Below, piece after piece: positions 188 through 62,300 of a stretch of 64,000 nt of DNA. The notes under the pieces are model-generated. The model saw nothing but the letters and a program-made list of their open reading frames with translations. It was not told where the DNA came from and made no database searches. How positions within the stretch are numbered: position 1 is the stretch's first letter; every line of letters begins with the position of its first letter. Where the stretch lies: NCBI RefSeq assembly GCF_007954275.1, contig NZ_VOLT01000001.1, positions 248,001 through 312,000 on the forward strand, in the 5' to 3' direction. The DNA is from Colwellia demingiae (lineage in GTDB: Bacteria > Pseudomonadota > Gammaproteobacteria > Enterobacterales > Alteromonadaceae). The translations under genes and the position numbers were made by a program.

Positions 188-575
188 TTATGTGACTGTT
201 GCTTATTATGTCTAGGTTATCTGTAGCAATACAATTTTAAATCCATCGATGTATTGAGGAAACATGCGAACTAAGTAACCAATGTTAATTATTTATGACT
301 CTGGGTCGCCATTTGAGCAAGAATATGCCAAGGATTCAACCAAAAACATGATTTATCGATGATCTACGCGAAATTAGGGTAAATTAATTGAAGTTATCGT
401 AAGTTAACCATAATTAGGCTATGTCATGATAATAAATTAACTAGGCACTCATAATAAGAGCCTATCCCCGTTACCAATCAAGATGCATGTTTCAGAGTGC
501 ACTTTGAATGGCAACGGGTATAAATAATTCAAGATAAACATTGCTGCTTAGTTCACGTTTTAGCTTTCTTTTTAG
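188..575. other. Intergenic region between oleA and the TSP3-repeat gene
   Basis: About 390 bases without a credible gene. It must hold the oleA promoter (oleA reads left from 187) and the 3' region of the large TSP3-repeat gene. The only clear structure is the palindromic repeat at 463-522. A 96-residue plus-strand frame at 541-831 is the antisense of the TSP3 gene's 3' end and has no homology I recognise. Confidence 0.6.
463..522. repeat. Palindromic dispersed repeat, copy 1
   Basis: Arms CCCGTTACCAATCAA..TGCA and TGCA..TTGAATGGCAACGGG face each other and end in the TATA typical of this family. The pair would fold into a hairpin of about 20 bp with the loop TGTTTCAGAG. It lies 53 bases beyond the stop codon of the TSP3-repeat gene. 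Related copies are at 5597, 8240, 21886, 30685, 52684 and 62207. Confidence 0.8.
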
Positions 576-3500
576 CTACTCTTTAGCTAAGTATTTTGGT
601 CGCTGTAATCTCGATATAAATAATGAAAATAAAGCGAACAAAGTAAAGAAGGCGAAACTACCACTGCTTGATTTTTCAGGGGTAACTTCAAGTGAAATAG
701 TATTGTTGTCAACCACGGCTATGCCGCCAGGATCATCAATCACACCATTGGCAATGCCATCTGCATCATTTGCGCCACCATCTTCAATGAATAATTTTAA
801 ACAAGTATCTCCAACATTAAGGCCTGCTTGATAAAGCTCACTATGTGGTGGCGGACAAACACCATTAACAGCCTTACTGGTGGCAATTACGTTATTACTG
901 TCTTCAGCAAAATCTGCCCATTGCTGTTCAGCGTTTACCTTACGATAGACAGAGTATTCAACGATAGCAGCTGATAGGGGCAAAATAATGGCAACTGAGC
1001 GACCAAAAGGGGCTATGTTATGTATTTCAAAATCAAAATAGCCCATTGTATTCGTTAAACTATCTTGTTCAACTAAACCTGTAGCCAAAATTTCTTGTTG
1101 CGAAAGCTCTATACCATCAGAGCTTTGCAGCAGCGCAAACTTACCCAGTTTTAATTGCAAGCCTGGCTCAGTTTCCGCTAACTTCACTAATGCCGCATTA
1201 ATATGTAATGGCTGTAAGTATGGAATTGTTGAATTATCCATGTAAGCGGGCAATCCGTCTGAGTCTGCATCGCTAAAGCCTTCAACCAAATCACTAATGC
1301 CGTCTCTATCACTATCTAAACCACGTAATGTTCGTTGAGTCGCCAATAAAGCTAGGTAAACCTGCTTAGTTTGTGACAGCTCTTCTGTACCGCTATTGGT
1401 GGTATTACCGCTATCAGTGACTGTGACGCTAAGATTAATAAGGCTTTTATTCTCTTCAGGTAGATTCAAACCATCGACGGGGAAGACAAGTTGTAATTTA
1501 TCCGTTGAAAGTACAGCACTTAAGTAGTCAGGAATTTGCCAATCAATTTGATGGGTATCTTGAACATTAGAGTCTTTAATCCTTAAAACAACTGTCACTT
1601 CACCGTCATTGATAGCAATGCTAGGCACTTGTATACCTTTTTGCCAGATTGCTAGGTCGATATTTGGCGCAACATTATCTTCTGTAATCGTAATGATATG
1701 TTTCGCATGAACGCCAGCATTTACACCTTGTTCAAGACTAACAATCAGCTGCTCATCACCTTCTAGTTGAAAATCACTATTAATATTAATATCGATAAAG
1801 CCTGCAGTACCCTGCGCTATTACGATCTTGTTATCTGCAATATTGTAATCCGCATTATCGACACCACCTGTGATTGTTAGTGGCAAGGTCACTGGATAAG
1901 CAGGCGCTTCACCAGATAACACCACTTCTACTCGGGCAACGCCACCTTCAGCAACAATTTGTGCCGATGCAAAGTTCACTAACGGATGAATGTTTAATAC
2001 TTGTGATACGTTGGCAATATTACCGGCGTTATCTACTGCTCGCCATAATATTGGGATCAAACCAGAGCTAACATTTTTAGCACCTGTTTCAAAACCTAAT
2101 GCCGTTAAACCACAGCAGTTTCTGCCATCGAGACCATCACGTACTGTAATATTGGTTAAGTCGATTAACCGCTGTAAATCTAATAAAGTAAACGTATGAT
2201 TGGCATTTATATGCACAGCTTGTGGCGGCGTAATAATTGGCGCGTAATCATCCCGCAATGGGTGACTGCCCGCTAAAGCTTCGGCTACGTTGGTAACACC
2301 ATCAAAGTCGGTATCTAAAAGTCCATCATCACCATTAAGTGGGTCAAAGTTATGCAATAGTTCAAATGCATCACTCATACCATCACCGTCATCATCTAAA
2401 TCCGCGTTATTACCAATTAAATCGCCGTCAGTGTCAAACTGTTCACTAGCATCTAGTGGCAGCTGGTCTTGAAAGTCTGATACACCATCATTATCATCAT
2501 CACTGTCAAAAACATTACCTAAACCATCACCATCAGTATCAAACGCTTCAACTGGGTTATTAGGAAATGCATCGTCTATATCTCTGATGCCATCATTATC
2601 ATCATCACTATCGCTATTATCTCCTAAGCCATCATTATCTGCATCAAGCCATTCTGTTGCATCCAGAGGGAATAAATCGATACTATCGAGACGACCATCG
2701 CCATCATCATCGGTATCGGCATTATTACCTGTGCCATCTCGGTCAGTATCAAACCATTCTAGCGGATCATCATCGAAAGCATCTATCGCATCAGAAAAAC
2801 CATCATTATCATCATCACTGTCCGCATTATCGCCAACGCCATCACCATCGTTATCGTATTGTTCGTTGGCATTTAGCGGATAAATATCATTGCCATCTAA
2901 AACGCCATCACCATCATCGTCTGTATCAGCATTATTGCCCGTTAAATCGCTATCCGTATCAAGCCATTCAGCAGGGTTAAGAGGGAATGCATCGACACTA
3001 TCAGGGTAACCATCGCCAGCTAGTGTGACATTATGAGTATCATCATCAGAGTCGCTATTGTTACCTATACCGTCACCATCTGAATCAACTGATTCTAGTG
3101 AATCAAATGGGAAATCATCTAGCCCATCAAGTACACCATCATTATCATCATCTAGATCAGCATTGTTTCCCGTACCGTCACCATCAGTATCTCGCGTTTC
3201 CAGTAAATCTAATGGTGAAGAATCTAAAAGATCATTAATGCCATCATCATCATCATCAGCATCGGTATTATTTCCCAAGCCGTCGCCATCAGTATCTAAC
3301 CATTCTGCAGGATCAAGTGGAAAGGCATCTGTGGCATCAGGTATACCGTCACCAATAAGTGTAACGTTATGGGTATCATCATCTGTATCAGCATTATTGC
3401 CGATGCCATCACCGTCAGTATCTATATACTCACCAGCATCAAAATCAAAGTCATCATTAGCATTAGTAATACCATCGCCGTCTATATCGGCATCGCTGTT

Positions 3501-4562
3501 ATCACCTAAACCATCACCATCTAAATCAAATTTCTCAGTCGAGTCTAAAGGAAAAGCATCTGTAGCATCTAGCTCACCATCACCATCAGCATCAGTGTCA
3601 GGTCCATCACAAGTCCCGTCATTATCGGTATCTAAACGCTCAAGAGGATCTAATGGACATTTATCAGTACCATCTTGTACACCATCACCATCATCGTCAT
3701 CATCGGCATTATTACCTATACCATCATTGTCCGTATCTAATGTTTCTAATGGATCAAGTGGCATATCATCATCAACATCAAGAACACCATCATTATCATC
3801 ATCGGTATCGGCATTATTACCTATCATATCCCCATCGGTGTCATACCATTCACTATTGTCATAACGGAAAATATCAAGGGTATTTACAATGCCATCACCA
3901 TCAATATCTGGATCTTGTGCATTACCAATACCATCTGCATCCAAATCAGCATTGACATTAAAATCTAAAGGAAAAGCATCACTGCCGTCATTGACACCAT
4001 CCCCATCATCATCTATATCAGCATTATTACCAATGCCATCAAGATCGGTATCGATAGTTTCAAGGGGGTCAAGTGGGAATTGGTCATAAACATCAAGAAC
4101 ACCGTCAGCATCATCATCACTATCGGCATTATTACCTACACCATCATTGTCAGAATCTAAGCTTTCTTGACTGTTAAGCGGGAATACATCAAGTAAATCA
4201 GGCGTACCATCATTATCATCATCAGTATCAGTATTGTTACCTATAGTGTCATTATCGGTATCAAGCCATTCACTGGGATCTTTAGGCAGGGGGTCATATA
4301 TATTGAGAGCTAAGTCGCCATCATCGTTATTATCATCGCCACCATATAAACCATTGAGTAGGCCATCGCCATCAATATCGGGATCACTGTTATTACCTTG
4401 GCCATCGAGATCAGTGTCAATCCATTCAAGTGGATCGCTAGGGAATAAATCAACAGCATCGTCATAGCCATCAAGATCAGTATCTACGGCAAAAGCACTG
4501 GTACTAATGACCAGTGTAAGTATGCTTAAGAATTTAAAGCTACGTATTTTATACTTCAACAC
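576..4562 (-). CDS. Large secreted calcium-binding protein with 19 thrombospondin type 3 units, Calx-beta-like and choice-of-anchor U domains, GlyGly-CTERM-like tail
   Basis: The frame is open from 4628, but I place the start at the GTG at 4562-4560. GGAG sits 6 bases before it, and the product then begins with a clean signal peptide ending ISTSAFA. The longer form has a poor leader. After the signal come 19 Asp-rich units of the form DAFPLDPxEWxDTDGDGxGNNAD, typical of thrombospondin type 3 calcium-binding repeats. Next is a Calx-beta-like segment (about residues 910-1010 of the long form). A choice-of-anchor U-like domain follows, with the hallmarks CPPP, IEDGGANDADG and DDPGG. The C-terminus is SSSGSF, a hydrophobic helix and SRLQRPK, which resembles a GlyGly-CTERM sorting signal cut by rhombosortase. 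A rhombosortase gene is at 8529-9149. Probably exported by type II secretion and surface-processed; the ligand is unknown. Confidence 0.85.
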   Translation of the reverse strand: MLKYKIRSFKFLSILTLVISTSAFAVDTDLDGYDDAVDLFPSDPLEWIDTDLDGQGNNSDPDIDGDGLLNGLYGGDDNNDDGDLALNIYDPLPKDPSEWLDTDNDTIGNNTDTDDDNDGTPDLLDVFPLNSQESLDSDNDGVGNNADSDDDADGVLDVYDQFPLDPLETIDTDLDGIGNNADIDDDGDGVNDGSDAFPLDFNVNADLDADGIGNAQDPDIDGDGIVNTLDIFRYDNSEWYDTDGDMIGNNADTDDDNDGVLDVDDDMPLDPLETLDTDNDGIGNNADDDDDGDGVQDGTDKCPLDPLERLDTDNDGTCDGPDTDADGDGELDATDAFPLDSTEKFDLDGDGLGDNSDADIDGDGITNANDDFDFDAGEYIDTDGDGIGNNADTDDDTHNVTLIGDGIPDATDAFPLDPAEWLDTDGDGLGNNTDADDDDDGINDLLDSSPLDLLETRDTDGDGTGNNADLDDDNDGVLDGLDDFPFDSLESVDSDGDGIGNNSDSDDDTHNVTLAGDGYPDSVDAFPLNPAEWLDTDSDLTGNNADTDDDGDGVLDGNDIYPLNANEQYDNDGDGVGDNADSDDDNDGFSDAIDAFDDDPLEWFDTDRDGTGNNADTDDDGDGRLDSIDLFPLDATEWLDADNDGLGDNSDSDDDNDGIRDIDDAFPNNPVEAFDTDGDGLGNVFDSDDDNDGVSDFQDQLPLDASEQFDTDGDLIGNNADLDDDGDGMSDAFELLHNFDPLNGDDGLLDTDFDGVTNVAEALAGSHPLRDDYAPIITPPQAVHINANHTFTLLDLQRLIDLTNITVRDGLDGRNCCGLTALGFETGAKNVSSGLIPILWRAVDNAGNIANVSQVLNIHPLVNFASAQIVAEGGVARVEVVLSGEAPAYPVTLPLTITGGVDNADYNIADNKIVIAQGTAGFIDININSDFQLEGDEQLIVSLEQGVNAGVHAKHIITITEDNVAPNIDLAIWQKGIQVPSIAINDGEVTVVLRIKDSNVQDTHQIDWQIPDYLSAVLSTDKLQLVFPVDGLNLPEENKSLINLSVTVTDSGNTTNSGTEELSQTKQVYLALLATQRTLRGLDSDRDGISDLVEGFSDADSDGLPAYMDNSTIPYLQPLHINAALVKLAETEPGLQLKLGKFALLQSSDGIELSQQEILATGLVEQDSLTNTMGYFDFEIHNIAPFGRSVAIILPLSAAIVEYSVYRKVNAEQQWADFAEDSNNVIATSKAVNGVCPPPHSELYQAGLNVGDTCLKLFIEDGGANDADGIANGVIDDPGGIAVVDNNTISLEVTPEKSSSGSFAFFTLFALFSLFISRLQRPKYLAKE
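2280..4490 (-). repeat. Array of 19 thrombospondin type 3 coding units
   Basis: An internal tandem array inside the large secreted protein gene, with a coding unit of about 37-40 codons. Units differ at many positions, so the array is old rather than recently expanded. Two units (around 3345-3385 and 3010-3050) carry the same extra segment DDTHNVTL before the next aspartate block, which points to duplication of a multi-unit block. On the plus strand the array gives long Ser/Pro-rich and His-rich shadow frames. Confidence 0.85.
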
Positions 4563-4746
4563 ACGTTTCTCCACGGAGAGTATTATCTGGAATTGAAACC
4601 AGATATTTATGTCAAATAACTTTAGCAAAGCTATAAGGCATAAAGGGATAGAATAAGTTTAACTGCAACAATCCGTTTACAGGTTTTCTTTATAACGGCC
4701 AATGTACATCTAACTTGAATAATTAAAGTGTTACTAACTCGTAACG

Positions 4747-5352: not shown

Positions 5353-5596
5353 TATTTTACACTCCTGCCAACATTTTGTCGGTTTTAAGGAACTACTGAT
5401 AAATAGAGTTAAGCAATTATCACACCAAATTAATTCAGACTTATTTAATAACTACAGTGGCAACGACGTTATCTAGTGATTGGGAGTAAAGGTAAGAAGG
5501 TTTGGATTGGGACTAGTACAGATAATGGCGATAAATTGACGGATAAGCTTTCATTTATTAGAACCAGTTTGCTTTATCTAGACAAACAAGCCTGAC

Positions 5597-5651
5597 TATA
5601 CCTGTTCCACTTCAAGATCCCTGCTCAGGATTTTGAAGTGGAACGGCTATA
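5597..5651. repeat. Palindromic dispersed repeat, copy 2, 7 bases after ggt
   Basis: TATACCTGTTCCACTTCAA..ATCC pairs with GGAT..GAAGTGGAACGGCTATA to give a hairpin of over 20 bp. It starts only a few bases beyond the ggt stop codon at 5658 and is well placed to act as a transcription terminator or mRNA 3' end stabiliser. It belongs to the TTCCACTT variant also seen at 62207. Confidence 0.8.
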
Positions 5652-5657
5652 AATGAC

Positions 5658-7418
5658 TTAACGCCCTAGCACTAATCCTTCTCTGCGTGGATCAGCACCG
5701 CCAACAAGGCCATCTTTAATAACTTCAATCGCATGTAAGCCACTATTCAACGCTCGAACGCTAACTTTATGCCCTCTAGCTTCAAGCGCAGGTTTGAGTT
5801 TAACAACATCGGTATCTAGCTCTAAGGTAGTAACATAGTTTCGATTAGTTACTTTAGGCAAGTTAATAGCCTGTTGCACATTAAGTTGCCAATCTAAAAC
5901 ACCTATAATTGTTTGCGCAACATAATTAATAATACGACTACCACCGGGTGCACCAACAATCAAACGTAATGAATTATCTTCATTAAATACCATCATGGGT
6001 GCCATAGAGCTGCGTGGTCTCTTCAACGGCTCTACTCGATTAGCTACCCATTTTCCATCACGCTTTGGCGTCAGTGAAAAATCAGTTAACTGATTATTTA
6101 AAATAAAACCCTGCACCATTAACGCTGAGCCAAAACCATTTTCAATACTACTGGTCATTGATATGGCATTACCTTGTTTATCAACAACCACCAAATGGGT
6201 GGTTGATGGTCTTTCAATAGCGTTATCATTGCCTAACACTAAACTATCTTGAGGATTGCCTGCCATTGCCTGCCCCATATCTCTTTTTTCATTAATTAAA
6301 GTGGCACGTTTAGCGATGTAATCTTCGGCTAATAAACCTTTAACGGGTACGCTGACAAAATCGCTATCGGCAATGTATTTATTTCTATCAGCGAAGGCTA
6401 ATCGTGAGCTCTGTGTTAACAGGTGTATCGCATGTAAAGAATTTGGTGGGTATTGAGCAAGTTCAAATGATTGTAGTTGAGCTAAAATCTGAATAACGCT
6501 GATACCACCCGAGCTTGGCGGTGCCATGCCACACACTTTATATTGATGGTAAGGCCCGCAAACAGAAGCTCGCTCTATCGCCTGATATTTTTTCATATCA
6601 TCGAGACTTAACAACCCCGGTGAAATGGCTGAATTTTGCACCTTTTCAACTATTTTTTTTGCTATCCAACCTTGATAGAAAACGTCTACTCCTTCGTTAG
6701 CAATACTACGAAATGCTTTAGCAAGCTTAGGGTTTTTTAAGGTATCTCCTGCTTTTATACCGATACCATTTGGTGAAAAATAATTTTTAATCTCGGGTAA
6801 AATATGAATGCCTGGATTGAAATTCATACCCAGTAACTTTTCTAAACGCGGCGATACAATAAAGCCGTTTTCAGCTAACTCAATCGCAGGCTGAAATAAC
6901 ACTTTCCATGGCAATACACCAAATTGTTCATGCGCTTTATTAAGCGCGGCAAGTAATCCTGGTACACCAACAGATTTACCACCCACAACGGCATCAGACC
7001 AGCTAAGTGGCTTGCCATTTCCATCTAAAAACAACTCACTTGTCGCATTTTGTGGCGCAGTTTCTCTACCATCAAAAGTAGTTAGCTTTTGATCTTTATT
7101 ATGCCAATGTAGCATAAAAGTACCACCACCAAGACCCGAGGATTGCGGTTCAACTAAGCTAAGTACGAGTTGAGCTGCAATAGCAGCATCAACAGCACTA
7201 CCGCCTTTATCAAGCATTGCTAATCCTGCTTTACTTGCATAGGGATTGGCAGCAACCACCATATATTGCTTAGCAAAAACGGCTTTTTTTTGATTAAAGC
7301 CAGTTGCGGCTTCGGGTTCACGGATTTCACGTTTAGCCAGCGCTGTTTGACTTATTAAAAGGTGAGTGACAATAAATGCGAGTGTAGAAAGTCGTAATAA
7401 AAATGAATGATGAATCAT
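5658..7418 (-). CDS. ggt: Gamma-glutamyltransferase (glutathione hydrolase)
   Basis: 586 residues, a normal length for a periplasmic GGT that cleaves itself into two subunits. It transfers or hydrolyses the gamma-glutamyl group of glutathione. The signal peptide ends QTALA. The N-terminal signatures GGSAVDAAIA and SSGLGGGTFM are present. The predicted autocleavage and catalytic Thr is Thr406 in RPSTTHLVVVD. PRSSMAP (470-471) and PGGSRI (491-494) match the substrate-binding serines and the oxyanion glycines. The start overlaps the stop of the tapT-like gene by one base (TAATG), with AAGGA just upstream, so the two are probably translationally coupled. A palindromic repeat follows the stop. Confidence 0.95.
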   Translation of the reverse strand: MIHHSFLLRLSTLAFIVTHLLISQTALAKREIREPEAATGFNQKKAVFAKQYMVVAANPYASKAGLAMLDKGGSAVDAAIAAQLVLSLVEPQSSGLGGGTFMLHWHNKDQKLTTFDGRETAPQNATSELFLDGNGKPLSWSDAVVGGKSVGVPGLLAALNKAHEQFGVLPWKVLFQPAIELAENGFIVSPRLEKLLGMNFNPGIHILPEIKNYFSPNGIGIKAGDTLKNPKLAKAFRSIANEGVDVFYQGWIAKKIVEKVQNSAISPGLLSLDDMKKYQAIERASVCGPYHQYKVCGMAPPSSGGISVIQILAQLQSFELAQYPPNSLHAIHLLTQSSRLAFADRNKYIADSDFVSVPVKGLLAEDYIAKRATLINEKRDMGQAMAGNPQDSLVLGNDNAIERPSTTHLVVVDKQGNAISMTSSIENGFGSALMVQGFILNNQLTDFSLTPKRDGKWVANRVEPLKRPRSSMAPMMVFNEDNSLRLIVGAPGGSRIINYVAQTIIGVLDWQLNVQQAINLPKVTNRNYVTTLELDTDVVKLKPALEARGHKVSVRALNSGLHAIEVIKDGLVGGADPRREGLVLGR

Positions 7419-8149: not shown

Positions 8150-8239
8150 AGAGTAGTAAAATAAAGCGCAATTAATTAGGCAGTCATTGTATACTTTATC
8201 ACTCTTTTATAAATCACTAACTGATAACTTTTAACTATT

Positions 8240-8503
8240 TATACCCGTTACCATTCAGAGTGCAGGTTTTCAGTGGGAATTTAAATAGCTTTAGGCAAGA
8301 AGAATAATTTAAGCATAGTCATTCTATGCTTTGATGATTTGACGCCGTATAAAGTCATTTTAAACCCATCGAAGAAGCGCTTGAGCAACATCACTTCATC
8401 GTTGCTGTGAGTTATAAGGAAATAACCATTACTTCATCACAGTGCCTTGAATTGAAATTGCTCAAGCACTCTGAAACCTGCATCTTGATTGATAACGGGT
8501 ATA
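8240..8503. mobile_element. MITE-like element with palindromic-repeat ends, upstream of rhombosortase
   Basis: The ends are inverted copies of the dispersed repeat. The left end is TATACCCGTTACCATTCAGA. The right end read in reverse is TATACCCGTTATCAATCAAG, and both continue into TGCAGGTTT(T)CAG. The element is 264 bases with no coding capacity. Internal pieces CATAGTCATTCTATG (8314-8328) and GGAAATAACCATT recur, inverted, in the element at 17976-18242. This suggests one MITE family. It fills most of the gap between divergent tapT and the rhombosortase gene, so it may supply or displace promoters. No transposase or clear target duplication is seen. Confidence 0.7.
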
Positions 8504-8528
8504 CATTCAATAACTAACAATTAAGCGC

Positions 8529-9149: not shown

Positions 9150-9154
9150 AAAAC

Positions 9155-9196
9155 GAAAAAAAGACCAAAAGTATAAACCCTTAGTCTTTTTTTACT
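9155..9196. terminator. Bidirectional terminator between rhombosortase and galE
   Basis: The run AAAAAAAGAC and the facing run GTCTTTTTTT form a stem between two convergent genes, with A and T tracts on opposite sides. It would therefore work for both the plus-strand rhombosortase and minus-strand galE transcripts. Confidence 0.75.
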
Positions 9197-9232
9197 TTTT
9201 ATATCAGTCAGTACTTTAACTTTGATTAGTAT

Positions 9233-18259: not shown

Positions 18260-21200
18260 ATGAGCAAAGCAAGCAGCCTGTTAACGCCGGTATTGGCCAA
18301 GCGCCGTGGCAAAAATCCCGATAAGAAGAGTTGGCATAATTTACATGGCAGCAGCAGCAGTTTTGCCCTTTATCAAGCAGCGAAAACAGCGAAAACGCCT
18401 ATATTATTGATCACCAGTAATACTCCCCAGGCACTTAAAATTGAGCAAGAGTTACTCAGTTTAGCTAAGAGTGATAGCCAAAATAAGGCTAATATCTGCT
18501 TGTTTCCTGATTGGGAAACATTACCGTACGATAATTTTTCACCTCACCAAGATATTATCTCTCAGCGCCTTGCTACCTTGTACCAATTATCACGTATGGA
18601 CTCTGGCATTATTATTGTGCCGGTAACCACCCTAGTACAAAAGCTTGCTCCTAAACAATACATTGAAGCAAACAGCTTAATAATAAAACAAGGTGATAAG
18701 AGAGATTTACATCAAATGCGACAAGCCTTAGAAGCAAGTGGCTATCGTAATGTTGATCAAGTATTAGAACATGGAGAGTTTTCTGCTCGAGGCGCTATTT
18801 TAGATCTTTTCCCTATGGGAAGTAATAAGCCATTTCGTTTAGATTTCTTTGATGATGAAATTGATGAAATTAGACTCTTTGATACTGAGAGTCAGCGTTC
18901 AAAAGAGAAGATTGAGGAAATTAATTTACTGCCCGCGCACGAATTTCCCATAGATGAAGCAGGTATCAACTTATTTCGTAGTCAATTTCGTGAACAATTT
19001 CAGGGCAATATTCATAAAGAGTCTGTTTATCACCAAGTCAGTAATGGTATTTTACCGCCTGGTATCGAGTATTACCTGCCCCTGTTTTTTGATAACAAAC
19101 AGGACAGTGAAAAAGAAGGTGTAATACTTAGCAATACTCTTTGTGATTATTTAACTGATAATACTCTGGTCGTTATTAGCGGTGATATTGAACACTCTTT
19201 AACGCAATACTGGCTTGATATAGAGTATCGTTATGAAAATAGACGTTACGACCCTACTCGGCCTTTATTACCGCCAGAACAGCTATTTTTAACCGCTGAT
19301 ACGCTTTATGGCGCGTTAAAGCCGTTTGATCGTATCACCATTGCCAAGCAAACCTCAACAGAGCAGAGCCAAACGCAAAGTGATATCAATCAAACTGGTG
19401 AAGATGTTCTTATCACAGAGAATATTGATGAAAGTGTAGAGGTAAAAAGCAAAAGCAGTGAAATATGTTTTGATGTTAAACCGCTACCTGATTTAACCAT
19501 CAACCATAAATTGAAGCAGCCGTTCGAATTAATCAATAAATTCATCCTCAGCAAAGAAACCCCCAACAAAGTACTTTTTATCGCGCAAAGCCAAGGTCGC
19601 CGAGAAAGTGTGCTTGAGTTGCTCGAACGTGACAACATTAAACCTGCTCAGTTTGATAACATCGATGACTTTATCAATGCAACGGATACCATTGGTATTA
19701 CCGTAAATAGCTTAACTCAAGGATTTGCTTTTCAAGCGAAAGGTAATAGCCAGAAAAATGCGATTGCACTGGTTACTGAAGCCGAGTTATTGGGTGATCA
19801 TGTATCTCAAGCCAGACGACGTACCAAAGCGCAAGATTTACAAGCTGATGCCTTATTTAAAAACCTTGCTGAGTTAACCATTGGCCAACCAGTTGTTCAC
19901 ATAGAACATGGTATTGGACGATATTTAGGTCTGCAAACGATTGAAAATGGCGGCATAGTTACCGAATTCCTAGTGCTTAGTTATGCGAACGAAGCCAAAC
20001 TTTATGTACCAGTAAGCTCTTTACACTTAATAGGTCGATATTCTGGCGCTGATAGTGATCATGCCCCTCTGCATAAATTAGGCAATGATACCTGGAGTAA
20101 AGCGAAGCAAAAAGCAGCAGAAAAAGTTCGTGACGTTGCCGCCGAATTACTCGATATTTACGCAAAACGTGCCAGTAATCATGGTTATAGTTTCAAACGT
20201 GATAAACAAGACTACCAAGCATTTAGTGACAGTTTTGGCTTTGAAGAAACCTTCGACCAAAAACAAGCAATTAATGCCGTAGTAAGCGACATGTTATCAC
20301 CTAAAACCATGGACAGACTTGTTTGTGGTGATGTTGGTTTTGGTAAAACTGAAGTCGCTATGCGTGCTGCTTTTGTGGCGGTAAATGATGGCAAACAAGT
20401 CGCAATACTTGTCCCCACAACATTACTGGCTCAACAACATTATGAAAACTTTAGAGATAGATTTGCCAACTGGCCGGTAGTCACTGAAGTATTATCACGA
20501 TTTAAAACACCTAAAGAACAAAAAGAAGTCATCGCTAGAGTTGAATCTGGCCAAGTTGATATCCTCATCGGCACCCATAAGTTACTGCAAAACAGCATAA
20601 AATATAAAGACTTAGGCTTGCTTGTTGTTGATGAAGAACACCGGTTTGGTGTTAAACAAAAAGAAAAAATCAAACAACTACGCAGTAACGTTGATATTTT
20701 AACGCTAACGGCAACCCCTATTCCACGTACCTTAAATATGGCCATGGGCGGTATGCGTGATTTATCTATTATTGCCACTCCGCCTGCAAAACGCTTAGCG
20801 GTAAAAACCTTTGTTCGCGAACACGATGAAGCCTTGATCAGAGAAGCTATTTTACGTGAAACCTTACGTGGTGGTCAGGTCTATTACTTACATAACCATG
20901 TAGATACTATTGATAAAACAGCCGCAGACATTCAAAAATTAGTACCTGAGGCGCGTGTCGTTACCGCCCATGGACAAATGCGTGAGCGTGAGCTTGAACG
21001 CATCATGAGTGATTTTTATCATCAACGATTTAATGTCATTGTTTGTACTACGATCATTGAAACGGGTATCGATGTACCCAGTGCCAATACGATCATAATG
21101 GACAGAGCAGACCATCTTGGTTTGGCACAATTACACCAACTGCGTGGCCGAGTAGGTCGTTCGCATCATCAAGCTTATGCTTATCTATTAACGCCACATG

Positions 21201-21880
21201 AAAAACGTATCACTAAAGATGCTAAAAAACGATTAGAAGCTATCGCCTCATTGGAAGATTTAGGCGCAGGTTTTACTTTAGCGACCCACGATCTGGAAAT
21301 TCGTGGCGCGGGTGAGTTATTAGGTGAAGACCAAAGTGGCTCAATGTGCCAAGTTGGCTTTAGTTTGTATATGGAAATGCTCGATCAAGCTGTTGCAGCA
21401 CTAAAAGAAGGTAAACAACTATCATTAGACCAAGTAATGTCTACGCAGACTGAGATAGAGTTACGTGTACCGGCGCTGCTACCTGATGATTACATTTTTG
21501 ACGTTAGCTTACGCTTAAGTTTATATAAACGTATTGCCAGCTGTAAAAACAAAAATGAGTTAGATGATATTCAAGTTGAGCTCATTGACCGTTTTGGTTT
21601 ACTACCTCAACCAAGTAAAAACTTAGTTCAAATTGCTAAGCTACGTCTTAAAGCACAGACTATTGGTATTTCACGAATTGAGGCAAGTGCTACTGGCGGC
21701 TCCATTGAATTTAGTAATGACACTAGCGTTGACCCTATGCTAATTATTGGCTTAATTCAAAAAAATCCAGCAGTGTATAGCATGGCTGGAGCGAGTAAGT
21801 TGAAGTTTGTAAAAGCCAACGATGATACTCAAAAACGCTTTACCTTAATTTCTAATATCTTAAATGACTTAGCAAAATAA
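18260..21880 (+). CDS. mfd: Transcription-repair coupling factor
   Basis: 1206 residues, longer than the 1148 of E. coli Mfd. It releases RNA polymerase stalled at DNA damage and recruits UvrA. It has a UvrB-like N-terminal module, an RNA-polymerase interaction region, then RecG-like helicase motifs: DRLVCGDVGFGKTEVAMRAAF (split P-loop), VVDEEHRFG, TATPIPRT, and HQLRGRVGRSHHQAYAYLL. A C-terminal TRCF domain closes it. The extra length is partly a Gln/Ser/Glu-rich linker at about residues 365-415 (KQTSTEQSQTQSD and on), likely disordered. AAGGA precedes the ATG. A palindromic repeat lies 6 bases after the stop. Confidence 0.97.
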   Translation: MSKASSLLTPVLAKRRGKNPDKKSWHNLHGSSSSFALYQAAKTAKTPILLITSNTPQALKIEQELLSLAKSDSQNKANICLFPDWETLPYDNFSPHQDIISQRLATLYQLSRMDSGIIIVPVTTLVQKLAPKQYIEANSLIIKQGDKRDLHQMRQALEASGYRNVDQVLEHGEFSARGAILDLFPMGSNKPFRLDFFDDEIDEIRLFDTESQRSKEKIEEINLLPAHEFPIDEAGINLFRSQFREQFQGNIHKESVYHQVSNGILPPGIEYYLPLFFDNKQDSEKEGVILSNTLCDYLTDNTLVVISGDIEHSLTQYWLDIEYRYENRRYDPTRPLLPPEQLFLTADTLYGALKPFDRITIAKQTSTEQSQTQSDINQTGEDVLITENIDESVEVKSKSSEICFDVKPLPDLTINHKLKQPFELINKFILSKETPNKVLFIAQSQGRRESVLELLERDNIKPAQFDNIDDFINATDTIGITVNSLTQGFAFQAKGNSQKNAIALVTEAELLGDHVSQARRRTKAQDLQADALFKNLAELTIGQPVVHIEHGIGRYLGLQTIENGGIVTEFLVLSYANEAKLYVPVSSLHLIGRYSGADSDHAPLHKLGNDTWSKAKQKAAEKVRDVAAELLDIYAKRASNHGYSFKRDKQDYQAFSDSFGFEETFDQKQAINAVVSDMLSPKTMDRLVCGDVGFGKTEVAMRAAFVAVNDGKQVAILVPTTLLAQQHYENFRDRFANWPVVTEVLSRFKTPKEQKEVIARVESGQVDILIGTHKLLQNSIKYKDLGLLVVDEEHRFGVKQKEKIKQLRSNVDILTLTATPIPRTLNMAMGGMRDLSIIATPPAKRLAVKTFVREHDEALIREAILRETLRGGQVYYLHNHVDTIDKTAADIQKLVPEARVVTAHGQMRERELERIMSDFYHQRFNVIVCTTIIETGIDVPSANTIIMDRADHLGLAQLHQLRGRVGRSHHQAYAYLLTPHEKRITKDAKKRLEAIASLEDLGAGFTLATHDLEIRGAGELLGEDQSGSMCQVGFSLYMEMLDQAVAALKEGKQLSLDQVMSTQTEIELRVPALLPDDYIFDVSLRLSLYKRIASCKNKNELDDIQVELIDRFGLLPQPSKNLVQIAKLRLKAQTIGISRIEASATGGSIEFSNDTSVDPMLIIGLIQKNPAVYSMAGASKLKFVKANDDTQKRFTLISNILNDLAK

Positions 21881-21885: not shown

Positions 21886-21946
21886 TATATTCTCGTTACC
21901 AAACAAGATGCATGTTTTTAGCGTGCTTTGAGTGGTAACGGGTATA
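21886..21946. repeat. Palindromic dispersed repeat, copy after mfd
   Basis: CTCGTTACCAAACAAGATGCATG and the facing AGCGTGCTTTGAGTGGTAACGGGTATA form a long imperfect hairpin, starting 6 bases after the mfd stop. Same family as 463-522, with the arms in the same relative order. Confidence 0.8.
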
Positions 21947-22073
21947 ATGGTAAACTTGAGCAAGTAACGTTTTCGCTAAACTTACTTTGCTCAAGCCTCT
22001 AAACAGTTTTAATGTAAAAATAAAATTGAGTTAGCTCAACTGATATACTTTTGTCTTAACATACGGATTTTTA

Positions 22074-25245: not shown

Positions 25246-25396
25246 TTAATTAACCTTTCAAACTAAAAATAAATGTAAAAATTTCAAAATGTTAATGCTC
25301 TAATTTTGAATTTACTAAGTTTATCAAAATAATATACCGCTGTGTCCTATAGCGGACATATTAATAAGATCACACTCTTTATAATTGCGTCTAATA

Positions 25397-25477
25397 AATA
25401 AGGGACTGGCACTAATATATTACTGATATATCATCAAGTAACGAACGTTAGTCAACGAAGATTTTAACCTGTTCTTA
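25397..25477. repeat. Direct repeat, left copy
   Basis: Starts AATAAGGGACTGGCACT, continues ATATATTACTGATATA, then ACGTTAGTCAACGAAG and CCTGTTCTT. About 80 bases, closely matching the copy at 26404-26490. Together they bracket the 253-residue gene. It contains no frame of its own. Confidence 0.8.
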
Positions 25478-26403: not shown

Positions 26404-26490
26404 AAATAAGGGACTGGCACTTATATATTACTGATATAACAAATAAAGTAGCGAGCGTTAGTCAATGAAGATATTTTTCCTGTTCTTTTT
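26404..26490. repeat. Direct repeat, right copy
   Basis: AAATAAGGGACTGGCACTTATATATTACTGATATA and GCGTTAGTCAATGAAG match the left copy at 25397-25477 over about 75 bases with a few substitutions and small indels. It begins within 10 bases of the stop of the 253-residue gene. Repeat-to-repeat distance is about 1.0 kb. Confidence 0.8.
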
Positions 26491-30198: not shown

Positions 30199-30752
30199 TA
30201 TTACCCTTATGACTGAAAATGTTATCTACTTTTCGTGTGTAACCGATGTTAAAAAACGTATTGATTCAATTATATATTTAATAATTGTTAGGTTAAAGGG
30301 ATCGCTAGATTGAAATGTATTTACGTTAAAATATATCGAAGTCTCGCTAGCTACTCAGTATTAATTTTGGCTAAAGATGAAACAAAGCTTAGTGTAGTGG
30401 GCAGGTCAGATTAGCCTCTACCTTAGTAGCTATTGCAACAAAAGTTCGTAATTAAAATAACACATCAATGACTGATTTTTAATGAGAAGAAGTTATAAGG
30501 TAATCATAAATGCTTAAGTCCGCTTTATTAGTAGAGGCCGACGTTAGCATAACAGTCCCTAGTGTCTGCAATTCGCACTTTTGAAGTCATGCCAATGCAA
30601 ATACGTGAACGACCGCAATGTGCCTTTTTCGACTGTCAGTTCGAGTTTGAGCCACTACACTTTATGATGCGATCTGCTGTAATATATACTCTTCGTCACC
30701 TCAAGATGCAGGACTCAGTGTCTTGAAGTATCATAGCTATAAAACCCAAAGA
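30199..30752. other. Long intergenic region between the GGDEF gene and rsuA
   Basis: About 550 bases with no credible frame on either strand. The right part holds the palindromic repeat at 30685-30741. The rest is AT-rich with no stem I would defend. It must contain the promoter of the minus-strand GGDEF gene near 30200-30300. Confidence 0.5.
30685..30741. repeat. Palindromic dispersed repeat, copy after rsuA
   Basis: TATACTCTTCGTCACCTCAAGA and the facing TCTTGAAGTATCATAGCTATA close around TGCAGGACTCAGTG. It lies 12 bases beyond the rsuA stop at 30753. It is the most diverged copy, with several mismatches in the arms, but keeps the TATA ends and the TCAAGATGCAGGA core. Confidence 0.65.
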
Positions 30753-31484
30753 CTATGAAAACTGAGCGATTTCATCTTCAGTTAAGTCACGCCATTCTCC
30801 TGGTGCTAAATCACCCAAGGTTATGTCTCCTATCTGTTCTCTGTGTAAACCCACTACCCTATTACCTACCGCTGCAAACATACGTTTAACTTGATGATAT
30901 TTACCTTCGGTAATAGTAAGTAGTACTTCACTTCGATAAGAAGCTTCATCAACCAAGTTCTCTTTTTCTACCCGCGTTAATATTGCAGGTCGAGTAAGCG
31001 AGTCTTCACCTTGAAGCTGAAGTCCACTGTCAAACCTAGCAACTAAAGCTGATAACTTATCATCATCAATTTCACTGCGTAGCCATACACGGTATGTTTT
31101 TTGGCACTGCTTTTTCGGCGAAATAACGTTATGCGACCAGCGACCATCATCGGTGATCAATACCAAACCAGTGGTATCAGCATCTAATCGGCCCGCGATG
31201 TGTAAATCGAAAGCTTTATCTACCTCAAGAGAATGTAATACTGACGGGTAGACTTCATCAACATTTGAACAAATGGTGTCTACTACCTTATGTAAAATAT
31301 AATAGCGAGAGCCACGTGCACTAAGTTGTTGACCATCGATAGTAATAATATTGTTTTCATGTACTTGCATTGCCGCATTTTTAGCAACTTCATTATTAAC
31401 ACGTACCTCACCACTTTTAAGCACTTTTTTAGCTTCGGTTCGGGTGAGTTCAGTACTTTTACAAATAAATTTATCTAAGCGCAT
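30753..31484 (-). CDS. rsuA: 16S rRNA pseudouridine(516) synthase
   Basis: I start at the ATG at 31484-31482, giving MRLDKFICKSTELTR as in known RsuA. A TTG four codons upstream is too close to the AAGG. An S4 RNA-binding domain (EAKKVLKSGEVRVNN) precedes the synthase domain, with the catalytic Asp in GRLDADTTGLVLITDDG. It converts U516 of 16S rRNA to pseudouridine. The sequence LTITEGKYHQVKRMFAAVGN is the conserved C-terminal part. Confidence 0.93.
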   Translation of the reverse strand: MRLDKFICKSTELTRTEAKKVLKSGEVRVNNEVAKNAAMQVHENNIITIDGQQLSARGSRYYILHKVVDTICSNVDEVYPSVLHSLEVDKAFDLHIAGRLDADTTGLVLITDDGRWSHNVISPKKQCQKTYRVWLRSEIDDDKLSALVARFDSGLQLQGEDSLTRPAILTRVEKENLVDEASYRSEVLLTITEGKYHQVKRMFAAVGNRVVGLHREQIGDITLGDLAPGEWRDLTEDEIAQFS

Positions 31485-31676
31485 ATTGGCAAGCAAGGCC
31501 TTACTATCAATGAAAATAAGCCGCTATTATCCGCATTGCTTATCAACAAGCAATAACTAATCTCATTTAGTTGTAAAAATGAAAAAAATAAATAACTATT
31601 ATTAACTATAAAAAAAAATTGATTATAAGTTAAGCTGTTATTATTAAATATAATTTTGTTGTAGGGACATAGCATC

Positions 31677-38116: not shown

Positions 38117-38760
38117 TTGTTTGTAGTAATATACACGCTAAAATAGTGTTAGTGAATGTATAAAGCACGCAATATGTAACATTAAATTCACTAAAAAATC
38201 ACCTTAAATTAACCTTTTGCTTTTTTCTTGTAAAAAGGATATTCAAAGGATCAACTTTCCCCGCTAGGCACTTTTTGGGACATTCATTTTGAGCTTGAGT
38301 TTGGCATCTTGATTCGAAAGACGTGCAGAATGGATTTTTATGTTATAGCGAGAATCAAAGGCATAAGTATGGCGTTTTTCTAGTTAGCGCTGAGGTGGGA
38401 TCAGATTAGTTAAAACTGAAGATTAAATTTTATCCGTTATCGATAGTTGACAAAGGCTCGTCGCAACTCGATATCAGTTCAAATCATGCCTGTCACTTTT
38501 GGGGAGGTATCACTACCGGTTTAGTCTAGAAGCGCTTTGTGCTGCGTTATTGTTCTACAATAACGCAGCACGGCTGTAGTTTATTAGAGTATGCTGGTGC
38601 ATATTTTACTGAATAGCTATTATCTTTAATCAATTCCTTGCCTGAAGACGTTTCTTAATCCCAGCTGAACCCGCATATTGAAGTAACATAGGTACAACAT
38701 AATCAGGTAACTGCTATTTTTGAAGGGCAAGCTCAGCTTAATTGACTAAAGCCAAGTTAC
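38117..38760. other. Long intergenic region between protease III and roxA
   Basis: About 640 bases with no gene I can support. The protease III promoter should lie near 38120-38200. The only strong structure is the hairpin at 38539-38571. Between 38230 and 38530 I see only mixed sequence without clear coding bias. Confidence 0.5.
38539..38571. repeat. Perfect 15-bp inverted repeat with a 3-base loop
   Basis: GTGCTGCGTTATTGT and ACAATAACGCAGCAC are exact reverse complements around TCT. No T-run follows in either direction, so it is not an ordinary terminator. It lies about 190 bases beyond the stop of minus-strand roxA at 38761. The loop is very short and the stem GC-rich for this genome. Confidence 0.75.
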
Positions 38761-52683: not shown

Positions 52684-52737
52684 TATACCCGTTACCATTC
52701 AAAGTGTTGTTTTTCAGTCGGAATTAAAATGGCTTTA
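52684..52737. repeat. Half copy of the palindromic repeat, 6 bases after comEC
   Basis: TATACCCGTTACCATTCAAA, then TTTTTCAGTCGGAATTAAAATGGCTTTA. It matches the left end of the MITE at 8240 over about 54 bases, but the right end is missing. It ends 6 bases before the comEC stop at 52743 (read on the plus strand), so insertion may have reset the comEC 3' end. Confidence 0.7.
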
Positions 52738-52742: not shown

Positions 52743-55337
52743 TTAATGGCTAAACCAAAATGGCCGTAAATCATTGACATAATTTTGAGTAGTGATGCCC
52801 TTTTCATCAACTGTTATGATGATTTGCCCCAGCTCTGCACTATTTAACAATTCAATTTTACTATCATGGTAACGCTGACTAACAATTGGGACTGGCATAT
52901 GCCAACGATTTAAGTAACCTGCACTAACTAACGCAATTTTAGGCGATAGTTGACTAAGAAACGGCTGACTTGATGATGTTTTAGAGCCGTGGTGAGGTAC
53001 TTGTAAAATATCAACACTAAGCTGCGGATAAATTTTTAGTAACTTCTGTTCTACTTTCGAGGAAATATCCCCGGTTAAAAGCAGTGTAGTTCCCTGTTGA
53101 TCACTAATTAAGATGACACAAGAATCATCATTTTTTTGCTTGCCCCTATTAATACTTTCATCTGAAGAATCCCAAGCTAAAGGCCATAAAATGTCAAACC
53201 TCAATCCTTGCCAAGAAAAGCTATTATTTGGCTGACAATCCGTAAGTCGCATACTGCTAGGGTTTAAGTTCTCAGTAGTTGATAAATCATTAAGTAATAA
53301 GGCCTTAGTTGGATTATAGAGTGTTTTATCATTACTGATTATTTCATCAATCGATATATTCTCTATCAGGGTATCAAGGCCACCAACATGGTCATTATCA
53401 CTGTGACTTAATATCACTTTATCGAGCTTCTCAATGGCTGAATATTGTAGAAATGGCAGTATCACCGCATCACTCATAGTAAAACCACTGGGGTAAGCTG
53501 CACCGGTATCATATAGAATGGCCTGGTTATCTCGTTTAAGTAATACCGAAGTTCCCTGACCAACATCAAAAAAAATTATTTCCCATGAGGTAAAGCCAAA
53601 CGCTGCTTGGAAATCAATATCATCCTTTGGAGTTTTTTCTTTTTTTGACCAAAAGTTGGTATTTACAGAGGACATACTTGGATAATAAAAATTAAACAAA
53701 CTCACACTAAGAACTAAAGCTAGCAGAACAAAAGTGACTTGCTTGACCCCCCTACTAGTCCAGAGAAACGGCGAAAGATAAAGCATTATAAAAGCAACAT
53801 TACCCACTACCAGAACAATCAATTGTTGAGTTAATGAAAGTGAAATAATTGCATAAGGGAGCTCACTAAGTAAATCAAGGTAATACCACAACCAGGTTAA
53901 CGACTGCAGTGATAACATCATAAACCATTGCGCTAATGACTCATTTATTGGCATCAAGACCACTGACATGAGCGCTGTAGGTATGCTAAAAACACTCATC
54001 CAAGGCACAGCAATGATATTTGCCAATAAACTAACTAGTGATACCTTTTGGAAAAATAATGCAGTAATCGGCATTAACATCACGGTAAGTGCTACTTGAA
54101 TAATAAATAGCGCTTTGAAGAAACGCCAAAAATAACCGCCCTTATTCATCCATGACTTAAATCGCCATAGTGATACAAAAATAATAGCCACAGCATAAAG
54201 AGATAACCAAAAGCTAGCGGTTAATAAACTAAAAGGGCTGATAATCAACAAAATAAAAATCGTCATGAGAATTAAACGTTTAGCTGATATTTTTATGCCA
54301 ACTACGCGACTAATCCAGTACAAGTTTAACATCACCAAAGCAAGCTTTGTTGGAAGAGAGAAACCTGCTAAATAAGCATATGCAGTTGCGAGTAACAAAC
54401 TCACAGCAATAGCAATATAACGGCTGTTGATACGCTGCCAGCCAGGGTTTCTCAACGGGATATATTGAACAAACAACATCACAATAAAAAATGCACTACC
54501 GGCAAGCAAGCCTACATGTAAACCCGAAATAGCAATAAGGTGACTAGTACCTGTCACTTGTAGTGTCTGCCAAAGGTCGGTATTAAGTGAACTACGCTCC
54601 CCAAAGGCTAATGCCAATAAAATGGGGGTAAGCTTATGATTTGGGGTAAGGCTTTGATAGTGCTCAAATAGCGTTTGCCTCATAGTGATATCTGCTATTA
54701 GCAATTTATTCGCTTTTAAGCTTTTTAAGTATTCCGCTTCTTGATAATTTGAATCTTTCTTCTTTCTCGGATTAACCACATATCCTGTTGCGACAATGTT
54801 ATGTGCTTTGAGCCAACTTAAATAATTAAACGTGCCTATATTTGCTAATCCATGGGCTGGTTTTACTTTAACGTTAAGAGAAAGTCTTTGACCTTGAGCA
54901 AGGTCAATAGTCGACTTTTGCCAACTTAGCCTAAGAGTCATTGGGCTTTCAAGTAGCTGTTGATTTATCTTATTAACGAGAAAATTAAAGCGTTTAGTGG
55001 AATTAGCTTTCTGTTGAACAGCGCTTTCCTTTATATGTTCGCTCAACATGTTCGGTGGCTTAACTTGGATACTAAGTACCTCACCTTCAATAAAAAATGG
55101 TTGTTTATTTTCCATTAGTTCAATAAGAGGGGGCGGTAACAGGTTATGATAGAGGTAAGCTTGGGCTAAGATCCATAAAGCACCAAACCATAATCCGGAG
55201 CTATAACGTAGTTTTTTATGGGAATAAAAGCCAATAGCGAGACAAAGAAGTAAAAATAGCTGAAAAAGCGCTGGCACTTCCTGCAAAAATAGGGACAATA
55301 TAGCACCAAGAAAAAATGTCAGTAACCACCAATCCAT
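52743..55337 (-). CDS. comEC: ComEC/Rec2 DNA uptake channel protein
   Basis: 864 residues. An N-terminal domain (DUF4131-type, to about 200) is followed by a competence domain with many helices and the motif SHLIAISGLHVGLLAGSAFF (residues about 262-282). The C-terminal metallo-beta-lactamase-like part has LSHSDNDHVGGL and VPHHGSKTSSS. It moves single-stranded DNA across the inner membrane in natural transformation. The lactamase-like metal ligands look intact. It precedes msbA, a common arrangement. A ComEA-like gene is at 16701. Confidence 0.92.
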   Translation of the reverse strand: MDWWLLTFFLGAILSLFLQEVPALFQLFLLLCLAIGFYSHKKLRYSSGLWFGALWILAQAYLYHNLLPPPLIELMENKQPFFIEGEVLSIQVKPPNMLSEHIKESAVQQKANSTKRFNFLVNKINQQLLESPMTLRLSWQKSTIDLAQGQRLSLNVKVKPAHGLANIGTFNYLSWLKAHNIVATGYVVNPRKKKDSNYQEAEYLKSLKANKLLIADITMRQTLFEHYQSLTPNHKLTPILLALAFGERSSLNTDLWQTLQVTGTSHLIAISGLHVGLLAGSAFFIVMLFVQYIPLRNPGWQRINSRYIAIAVSLLLATAYAYLAGFSLPTKLALVMLNLYWISRVVGIKISAKRLILMTIFILLIISPFSLLTASFWLSLYAVAIIFVSLWRFKSWMNKGGYFWRFFKALFIIQVALTVMLMPITALFFQKVSLVSLLANIIAVPWMSVFSIPTALMSVVLMPINESLAQWFMMLSLQSLTWLWYYLDLLSELPYAIISLSLTQQLIVLVVGNVAFIMLYLSPFLWTSRGVKQVTFVLLALVLSVSLFNFYYPSMSSVNTNFWSKKEKTPKDDIDFQAAFGFTSWEIIFFDVGQGTSVLLKRDNQAILYDTGAAYPSGFTMSDAVILPFLQYSAIEKLDKVILSHSDNDHVGGLDTLIENISIDEIISNDKTLYNPTKALLLNDLSTTENLNPSSMRLTDCQPNNSFSWQGLRFDILWPLAWDSSDESINRGKQKNDDSCVILISDQQGTTLLLTGDISSKVEQKLLKIYPQLSVDILQVPHHGSKTSSSQPFLSQLSPKIALVSAGYLNRWHMPVPIVSQRYHDSKIELLNSAELGQIIITVDEKGITTQNYVNDLRPFWFSH

Positions 55338-55410
55338 AGTGATATAAATCCTTTTATGTTTAGTGGTTAAATTATCGAGCTAACGCCTTACTGACATTAC
55401 CGATTGCTTT

Positions 55411-55453
55411 ACTTAGCAACATATATATTACGTAAATATATATGTTGCTAAGT
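55411..55453. repeat. Perfect 19-bp inverted repeat between divergent comEC and DUF2062
   Basis: ACTTAGCAACATATATATT and its exact complement AATATATATGTTGCTAAGT surround the 5-base loop ACGTA. It lies 74 bases before the comEC start and 48 bases before the DUF2062 start. Centred in the promoter gap, it could be a protein-binding dyad or a cruciform-prone site; no T-run follows. Confidence 0.8.
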
Positions 55454-55500
55454 AAATTATTTACCACATTAACTTTTAGCTAAGGGACCTATAGAAGTAT

Positions 55501-56010: not shown

Positions 56011-56081
56011 GTCTTTCGATGAATTTACCGAACAGCCAAAATAAAGCGTTAATAATAATAAAAAAGACATTAAGAGAAGTA

Positions 56082-57425: not shown

Positions 57426-57493
57426 ATTGTCTTTGTTACACTCGACTACTTTGCCTGCTACTGACTATTTCATTACCTTTTATAGCAGCTGAT

Positions 57494-58891: not shown

Positions 58892-59008
58892 CGTTTCTTT
58901 CTTTTAAATTCCATGGTCTTACATAAATAAAAACACTAAAAAAAATATAATTAAGCAGTTAATATATACTATTAGCTGCTTAATTTTCAAAGTAGGTATT
59001 ATCTACCA

Positions 59009-61444: not shown

Positions 61445-61449
61445 TCTCC

Positions 61450-62175
61450 CTAAGCTGCTACAGTGTCACTTGATTTATTTTCTTTGGTTAATGAGTTATC
61501 ACTAATCACCTGTCCATCTAAAATATCAATATTACGAGAAGCTCGCTGCGCTGAGCGAGGATCATGTGTAACCATACATATAGTGGCACCTTCTGCATGT
61601 AATAAGTCTAAAAGCTCCATTACTGCTTCAGCATTTTTCGAATCTAAATTTCCGGTAGGTTCATCAGCAAGAATAATTGAAGGTTTCCCAACGATGGCAC
61701 GTGCTACCGCGATACGTTGCTGTTGGCCACCAGAAAGTTGCGAAGGAAAATGCTTAGATCTGTGTGACATATTCACTTTTTCTAATGCTTCCTTAACCAT
61801 TGCCTTACGCTGGTCTTTGCTTAGATCTTTACGATAAGTAAGTGGCAATTCAACATTCTCTTCAACATCAAGGTCACTGATCAAATTGAAAGATTGAAAT
61901 ATAAAGCCAATTTCCATATTACGAATTCGGGCACGCTCTTTTTTAGATATATTAGAAACATCATGTTCAGCCAATTGGTACAAACCTTCAGTACTAGCAT
62001 CTAATAAGCCTAATAACGAAAGCAAAGTAGATTTTCCACAACCAGAAGGTCCTGAAATTGAGACATACTCACCTTTATTAATAGTTAACGTTATGTCTGC
62101 TAACGCATGGGTTTCTACTTCATCGGTAAAAAATACTTTTTGAATGTTTTCTAATTTAATTAATGTATCACTCAT
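61450..62175 (-). CDS. ABC transporter ATP-binding protein, MacB/LolD type
   Basis: 241 residues. Walker A GPSGCGKSTLLSLLGLLD, Q-loop FIFQSFNLI, signature LSGGQQQRIAVARAI, Walker B SIILADEPTGNLD and switch MVTHDPRSA. The close match to LolD/MacB-type ATPases fits the FtsX permease it overlaps in operon. A Ser/Lys-rich tail (about 15 residues) follows the core. Confidence 0.95.
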   Translation of the reverse strand: MSDTLIKLENIQKVFFTDEVETHALADITLTINKGEYVSISGPSGCGKSTLLSLLGLLDASTEGLYQLAEHDVSNISKKERARIRNMEIGFIFQSFNLISDLDVEENVELPLTYRKDLSKDQRKAMVKEALEKVNMSHRSKHFPSQLSGGQQQRIAVARAIVGKPSIILADEPTGNLDSKNAEAVMELLDLLHAEGATICMVTHDPRSAQRASRNIDILDGQVISDNSLTKENKSSDTVAA

Positions 62176-62206
62176 AATCTGTCCTTATGATCTGTTATTT
62201 ATCATA

Positions 62207-62300
62207 TATACCCGCTCCACTTGAAGATGCTCGTTTCAGGAAGTCTGAGCGATTCATAATCAAGGCACATTTTTTTATTAAGGGTTATTCCCTTAAAAAG
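62207..62300. repeat. Half copy of the palindromic repeat inside the efflux operon
   Basis: TATACCCGCTCCACTTGAAGATG and TCGTTTCAGGA at the left, continuing to an AAGGGTTATTCCCTTA core also seen in the MITE at 17976. The right end is absent. It lies between the adaptor stop (62335) and the ATPase start (62175), so it could attenuate or stabilise the shared transcript. Confidence 0.6.

Follow-up and report, generated by a model that had tools for sequence, protein, structure and literature searches.

Short intergenic hairpins of Colwellia as probable collapsed ends of IS630-type MITEs

Seven copies of a palindromic repeat family in a 64,000-nucleotide stretch of Colwellia DNA (hereafter, the window) lie between genes, six of them shortly after a stop codon. 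Do such sequences end or stabilise the mRNAs of the genes that they follow, as a sequence-only reading of the window had suggested, or are they remains of a mobile element that happen to be tolerated there?

Seven related copies of three kinds

All seven places proved to hold related intergenic sequence, and both motifs of the family were more frequent than in shuffled sequence. TATACCCGTTACCA with up to three mismatches occurred 19 times in the window, against a shuffle expectation of 4.3 and a shuffle maximum of 10, and TATACCYGYTCCACTT occurred 8 times, against 1.6 expected; in the whole genome of origin (G000; 5.23 Mb in 37 contigs), TATACCCGTTACCA with at most one mismatch was found 77 times, compared with 4 times for a reversed control. 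The earlier description of seven copies of one family was right about relatedness but not about kind, since the copies comprise four hairpins of 55 to 60 bp, one intact 264-bp MITE, and two truncated ends (Table 1). The six copies said to follow genes do all lie beyond a stop, at 53, 6, 7, 11, 5, and 28 nt, and the remaining copy, described as forming both ends of a 264-base MITE, is an intact element of that length with inverted ends. The hairpins at 463, 5597, and 21888 folded far better than shuffled sequences, and the one at 30685 did not. No Rfam family scored over its threshold in the window.

Table 1. Members of the repeat family in the window, with one neighbouring stem-loop; z, folding score relative to shuffled sequences
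Feature	Coordinates	Strand	Context and remarks
60-bp hairpin, in-place internal-deletion remnant of MITE-A	463..522	-	53 nt beyond stop of TSP3-repeat gene (576-4628, -); z -6.6
55-bp hairpin, TTCCACTT (MITE-B-like) subtype	5597..5651	-	6 nt past ggt stop (5658-7418, -); z -6.9; 78% fit to joined MITE-B ends; absent in G011
Intact 264-bp MITE-A	8240..8503		Between starts of DTW-domain gene and rhomboid gene; site empty in G009 and G035
59-bp hairpin	21888..21946	+	7 nt past mfd stop (18260-21880); z -5.0; TA duplication from empty and filled genus sites
Separate stem-loop beyond mfd, outside the element	21955..21995	+	Also in species without the element
Diverged 57-bp hairpin	30685..30741	-	11 nt past stop of rsuA-type pseudouridine synthase gene (30753-31496, -); weak fold, z -0.93; copy also in hairpin-model training set
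Truncated MITE-A left end, no hairpin	52684..52737		5 nt past comEC stop (52743-55337, -); 87% to MITE left end; z +0.4
Truncated MITE-B, first 100 bp	62207..62306		28 nt past stop of HlyD-type adaptor gene (62335-63591, -); 97% to L087 copy, 94% to 267-bp copy in L094

Other repeats were seen nearby. A 38-nt direct repeat, 95% identical between its copies (25396-25433 and 26404-26441), precedes two adjacent genes, and two perfect inverted repeats with arms of 22 nt (55408-55456) and 15 nt (38539-38571) lack the ends of the family. On the 3' side of ggt, near the site of the 5597 hairpin, two relatives (L358 in G009 and L364 in G012) carry a different palindrome, CACTCTACTTGATGAT...CAAGTAGAGTG, which may be an ancient copy with a third type of end.

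Full-length elements and their probable IS630 parentage

A search of the window's genome with the 264-bp MITE returned 53 matches, including 26 single near-full copies (the window copy among them) and one joined from two. Near-full copies are either about 264 or about 312 bp long, the difference being a 48-bp internal piece. The terminal inverted repeats of the window copy have arms of 33 nt that are 82% complementary, and as RNA both of its strands are much more stably folded than shuffled sequences (z -9.2 and -9.6); no open reading frame of at least 80 amino acids lies within it. Inverted ends were aligned across 15 MITE copies, one of which lacks its left half. A second subfamily, MITE-B, has TTCCACTT ends and lengths of 267 and 316 bp. 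Because it aligns with the first, MITE-A, over its full length and contains the same 48-bp module, the two sub-types with a common core that had been recognised from the window alone are the two end types of one superfamily.

MITE-A was present in 28 of 39 genus genomes, and a model of the short hairpin matched in 33 (593 matches on both strands, 31 of them in the window's genome). Under stricter filters the model matched 14 of 118 genomes drawn from the taxonomic family, 3 of the 14 belonging to the genus itself, and a pattern specific for the ends picked out 70 stretches in named genome records, 67 from Colwellia and 3 from Thalassotalea.

The 48-bp module, which contains two small hairpins, is found within internal arms in both subfamilies and in most cases immediately precedes (C/T)AAC(C/T) (L128:1553-1868, L028, L023, L078, L092, L131, and others). 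Among 32 near-full module copies, 26 were in one arm and 3 in the other, with 3 left unclassified by the script. The module, which has a parallel in the insert of about 50 bp in Correia elements, may be a nested element.

The proposal that the family derives from a mobile element was supported by its MITE structure, its IS630-type ends, TA duplication, and the contrast of filled and empty sites. At the mfd site, where 29 of the 30 genus loci fetched were readable, the sequence in element-free species, such as that of L242, is TTACTTATAATGG, whereas the window has TA, element, TA, ATGG, which defines a mobile unit TACCCG...CGGGTA between duplicated TA. At the two empty sites of the 264-bp MITE, the target bases have since changed. 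In two species (L244 and L249) the mfd-csiV spacer, which in the window carries the hairpin, contains the beginning of a MITE of the second subfamily.

The MITE ends, TATACCC...GGGTATA, and the TA target duplication match those of IS630-family insertion sequences of about 1.1 kb in genus relatives. DDE_3 matches occurred in 15 of the 39 genus genomes, and among 30 of the 49 DDE_3 loci there were five TATACCC-ended elements of 1,093 to 1,101 bp with a DDE_3 transposase (L296, L297, L298, L299, and L311), which by their flanks represent three distinct insertions. The frame is fully open only in L296, whose protein is an IS630-family transposase (NF033545, 227.7 bits against a cut-off of 100; DDE_3, 128 bits). 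In L311 one end is TATACCCATCACCATTCAAAGTGC, which resembles the MITE end TATACCCGTTACCATTCAAAGTGC; such likeness, judged by eye, spans only about 25 to 35 bp, and none of the same 30 loci held an IS630 element with ends identical to those of the MITE. Neither a DDE_3 match nor, in a search run without a positive control, a match to the L296 transposase was found in the window's own genome. A second IS630-type group of about 1.0 to 1.1 kb (L312, L318, L320, and L324), with ATACCAATT ends, is distinct from the TATACCC group.

The family consists of non-autonomous MITEs with IS630-type ends, which, judged by end similarity and TA duplication, were most likely moved by an IS630-family transposase of the kind present in relatives. 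The target habit of IS630 elements is illustrated by ISY100, for which insertion at TA with TA duplication has been demonstrated in vitro (PMC2170065).

Collapse of full MITEs to hairpins

At the site of the window's 463 hairpin, and with the same flanks, one species (G009) carries a 265-bp MITE, another (G011) a 60-bp hairpin like that of the window, and a third (G012) nothing; an unusual GGCAACGGG end is common to the window hairpin and the G009 MITE. Hairpin and full MITE were also paired at the same site in L141 (G005) and L281 (G022), in L154 (G028) and L287 (G021), and in L171 (G017) and L280 (G019), the last pair being judged by flank alignments that abut the element and are 77% and 96% identical. 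Across these four sites the hairpins measure 57 to 60 bp, each facing a full MITE in another species, and at w463, L141, and L154 hairpin and full MITE have unusual bases in common. Pairing of L137 with the L083 MITE was rejected, as the immediate flanks differ.

Most short hairpins could be reconstructed from two MITE ends. A fit of at least 75% to one MITE-A end joined to the other was obtained for 105 of 126 (102 from relatives and 24 from the window's genome), in 33 junction classes, a number to which small indels add false classes because the end-to-end fit is free of gaps. Of 12 hairpins with other end types, 11 fitted MITE-B ends at 75% or more, and a few also passed the MITE-A fit. The commonest junction, with 38 copies, lies at a 3-bp TGC repeat, and that of L154 lies, by eye, at a 5-bp CTTGA repeat. 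Junction microhomology averaged 1.95 per copy, a figure that includes some non-independent copies within classes, and 0.97 per class; random junctions gave 0.72. With the per-class value near random, a repeat-guided mechanism rests on the common classes.

Another reading makes the short hairpins an independent family that transposes in units of 55 to 66 bp, with the full MITEs at the same sites being coincidental or later. A 58-bp hairpin that occurs in identical form in G038 and G012, but not at the same site, and the 11 copies of one 58-bp class with just 1 bp of microhomology, would suit it; it sits poorly with the four same-site pairs and with the unusual bases shared at three of them, and we consider it unlikely.

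As a whole, the observations are best explained by the origin of most hairpins as two MITE ends joined by internal deletion, a reading that we hold with high confidence. An IS630-family transposase would move full MITEs into TA sites, and deletions within the folded element, many of them joining short direct repeats close to where the terminal stem has its tip, then remove about 205 bp and leave a 46- to 82-bp hairpin of two ends back to back, as comparison between species shows for four sites. Slippage, or cleavage at a cruciform, may cause the deletion. Some short forms may also move on their own, as the identical hairpin at different sites in two species suggests.

Position relative to genes

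Gene context was taken from genes called with a codon-bias script. The window's genome contributed 24 hairpins, 27 full MITEs (in one case with no gene called on the right), and 15 of 16 partial copies with context, and 101 of 103 hairpin loci examined in relatives, mostly the best-scoring ones, gave context. The hairpin model had been trained on seven copies, four of them from the window, and its completeness is therefore limited to forms of about 46 to 90 nt. Grouping by flank similarity reduced 125 hairpins with context to 102 independent groups, one of which, with 11 members, seems to merge unrelated copies through repeats in the flanks.

Genome-wide enrichment after stop codons, which had been predicted from the window, appeared in one respect and not in another. 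The 102 independent hairpins fell into 16 convergent, 61 tandem, and 25 divergent gaps, which equals the shares of intergenic bases in a 464-kb background (p = 0.76). Within tandem gaps, on the other hand, 50 of the 61 hairpins were nearer the stop than the start (p = 5e-7), and 21 lay within 12 nt of the stop, compared with 8.0 expected from uniform placing in the same gaps; none of the 61 lay within 12 nt of a start. The skew persisted when the window copies were removed (46 of 57 nearer the stop; 18 within 12 nt, against 7.8 expected) and had also appeared after a rougher removal of duplicates, in which loci of the window's genome and of relatives were left uncompared (55 of 71 nearer the stop).

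The position set for full MITEs held 47 copies, 26 from the window's genome and 21 of the 29 fetched from relatives; in tandem gaps, 15 of 26 were nearer the stop. For random TA sites, 49% were nearer the stop and 8.3% within 12 nt of it. The difference in position between hairpins and MITEs, in the rough set, was weak (p = 0.04 for relative position and 0.10 for distance). On the stop side, 8 of 32 intact MITEs and 31 of 89 hairpins lay within 12 nt, compared with 9.6% of random TA sites.

The majority of copies have the look of insertions that are tolerated. Hairpins may survive best just after stop codons because promoters and leaders would tolerate them least. For pneumococcal repeats, which are described as over-represented between convergent genes, a 3' bias was likewise read as tolerance by Croucher and colleagues (PMC3049150).

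A proposed terminator or stabiliser role

The position data can also be taken to mean that the hairpins are functional terminators or 3'-end stabilisers throughout, kept after stops by selection, and their stable folds, the crowding within 12 nt of stops in tandem gaps, and the conserved arms of one hairpin, between prpC and acnD, agree with such a role. Ribosome stalling has been reported for REPs located up to about 15 nt from a stop codon. Intrinsic termination, which had been suggested for the window copies, is disfavoured: of 89 stop-side hairpins, 1 had TTTT in the 12 nt after the element, whereas 10.4% of random intergenic 12-mers contain it, and mfd has a separate stem-loop downstream that is also present in element-free species.

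Other measurements tell against selection for function throughout. Gap-class shares equal those of intergenic bases, with about a quarter of the independent hairpins (25 of 102) between divergent starts, and intact MITEs share part of the closeness of hairpins to stops. Better pairing near stops, considered as a sign of selection, was rejected, as outer-arm pairing (of 20 pairs) was 0.85 near stops, 0.87 further away, and 0.85 in divergent gaps. At mfd, where six species have the element or a remnant, decay is evident: the outer left arm is gone from three, and another retains no more than a fragment. Across 8 orthologous groups, which include a pair from prpC-acnD, variable sites numbered 16 of 304 in stems, 11 of 190 in loops, and 127 of 966 in flanks; in the 7 groups without prpC-acnD, stems varied more than loops (16 of 266 against 5 of 158). 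The groups were drawn from high-scoring matches and are biased toward intact stems. A terminator or stabiliser role throughout the family is accordingly improbable. Most hairpins are probably passengers, and a few, such as that between prpC and acnD, may have been recruited as stable RNA stems between cistrons, where they would determine how abundant or long-lived one half of the message is relative to the other.

The prpC-acnD hairpin

In the prpC-acnD spacer, which lies outside the window, a 69- to 70-bp hairpin is situated 45 nt before the acnD start in five species (G000, G009, G011, G012, and G035). A 500-bp search of the genus matched 34 of 39 genomes, and the five were the only carriers among 30 loci fetched. 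The upstream gene was assigned to NF009006 (2-methylcitrate synthase); the best match of acnD was TIGR02333, with a score below cut-off because its reading frame runs off the end of the locus. Among the five carriers the arms vary at 0 of 38 sites, compared with 15 of 32 in the inner part (p = 8e-7) and 16 of 40 in the 40 nt upstream (p = 5e-6). Codon-position counts for acnD were set aside, as L328 is misaligned in them and gaps at the ends had been included. Conservation of the arms suggests co-option of the hairpin at this one locus, which was noticed post hoc; nearly equal conservation extends over the 45 nt downstream (2 of 45 sites variable), so that the whole leader may be constrained. 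Upstream of the MITE hairpin, the spacer holds a further long inverted repeat, TTATTTGCCAC...GTGGCAAAT, in many genus genomes (L326-L350).

Relation to known repeat families

Spread as REP elements by a RAYT (Y1 tyrosine) transposase, which short extragenic palindromes near genes might bring to mind, was rejected as highly improbable, given that PF01797 had no match in the window's genome (0 of 1; the control matched in 5 of 14), that the elements start with TATACCC and end with GGGTATA (with variants) and no hairpin end has an unpaired GTAG or CGTC tag, a feature described for REPs (PMC3733652), and that the family has TA duplication and full-length forms with inverted ends of DDE type. The likeness to REP/BIME sequences lies in short palindromes beside genes and, for stop-side copies, possibly in how they work.

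Closer parallels are found, by description, among three families treated in PMC2229807. RUP of Streptococcus pneumoniae (107 bp; about 108 copies) is likewise non-autonomous and tightly folded, with a TA target and ends like those of IS630-Spn1; it differs in sequence and host, and the Colwellia family has full forms of 264 and 312 bp and collapsed forms of 46 to 82 bp. Unlike pneumococcal repeats, the Colwellia family shows no excess in convergent gaps; the window's genome yielded no autonomous element. Correia/NEMIS elements of Neisseria (about 107 and 155 bp) share TA ends, inverted ends, a long stem-loop, and two lengths that differ by an insert of about 50 bp; the Neisseria insert has an IHF site, whereas the 48-bp Colwellia module has no IHF consensus and occurs in both internal arms. 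ERIC of enterobacteria (127 bp) is also a MITE that folds and lies between genes, and there is evidence that it affects the stability of operon mRNAs; in Colwellia, by contrast, many copies are collapsed ends. ISY100, of the Tc1/mariner/IS630 family, similarly inserts at and duplicates TA; being autonomous, it serves as a mechanistic model only. No paper on the present family in Colwellia was found in the open-licence PMC literature.

Significance

In kind the family is ordinary, as IS630-type MITEs are already known. What is unusual is that in several cases the step from MITE to bare hairpin can be seen by comparing one site between sister species, so that the origin of short genomic hairpins becomes open to direct testing. 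The family also cautions against taking every short palindrome beside a stop codon for a terminator. We tentatively propose, as a possibility that is somewhat less likely than its negation, that collapse of DDE-type MITEs is a second, RAYT-free route to REP-like hairpins, in which the middles would be lost at recurrent short repeats, two-end stems would be left near stops, and some of these would last as intercistronic regulators, with the prpC-acnD hairpin of five Colwellia species as a domesticated case. The prpC-acnD spacer offers one concrete locus at which a pair of transposon ends may have joined the RNA of an operon.
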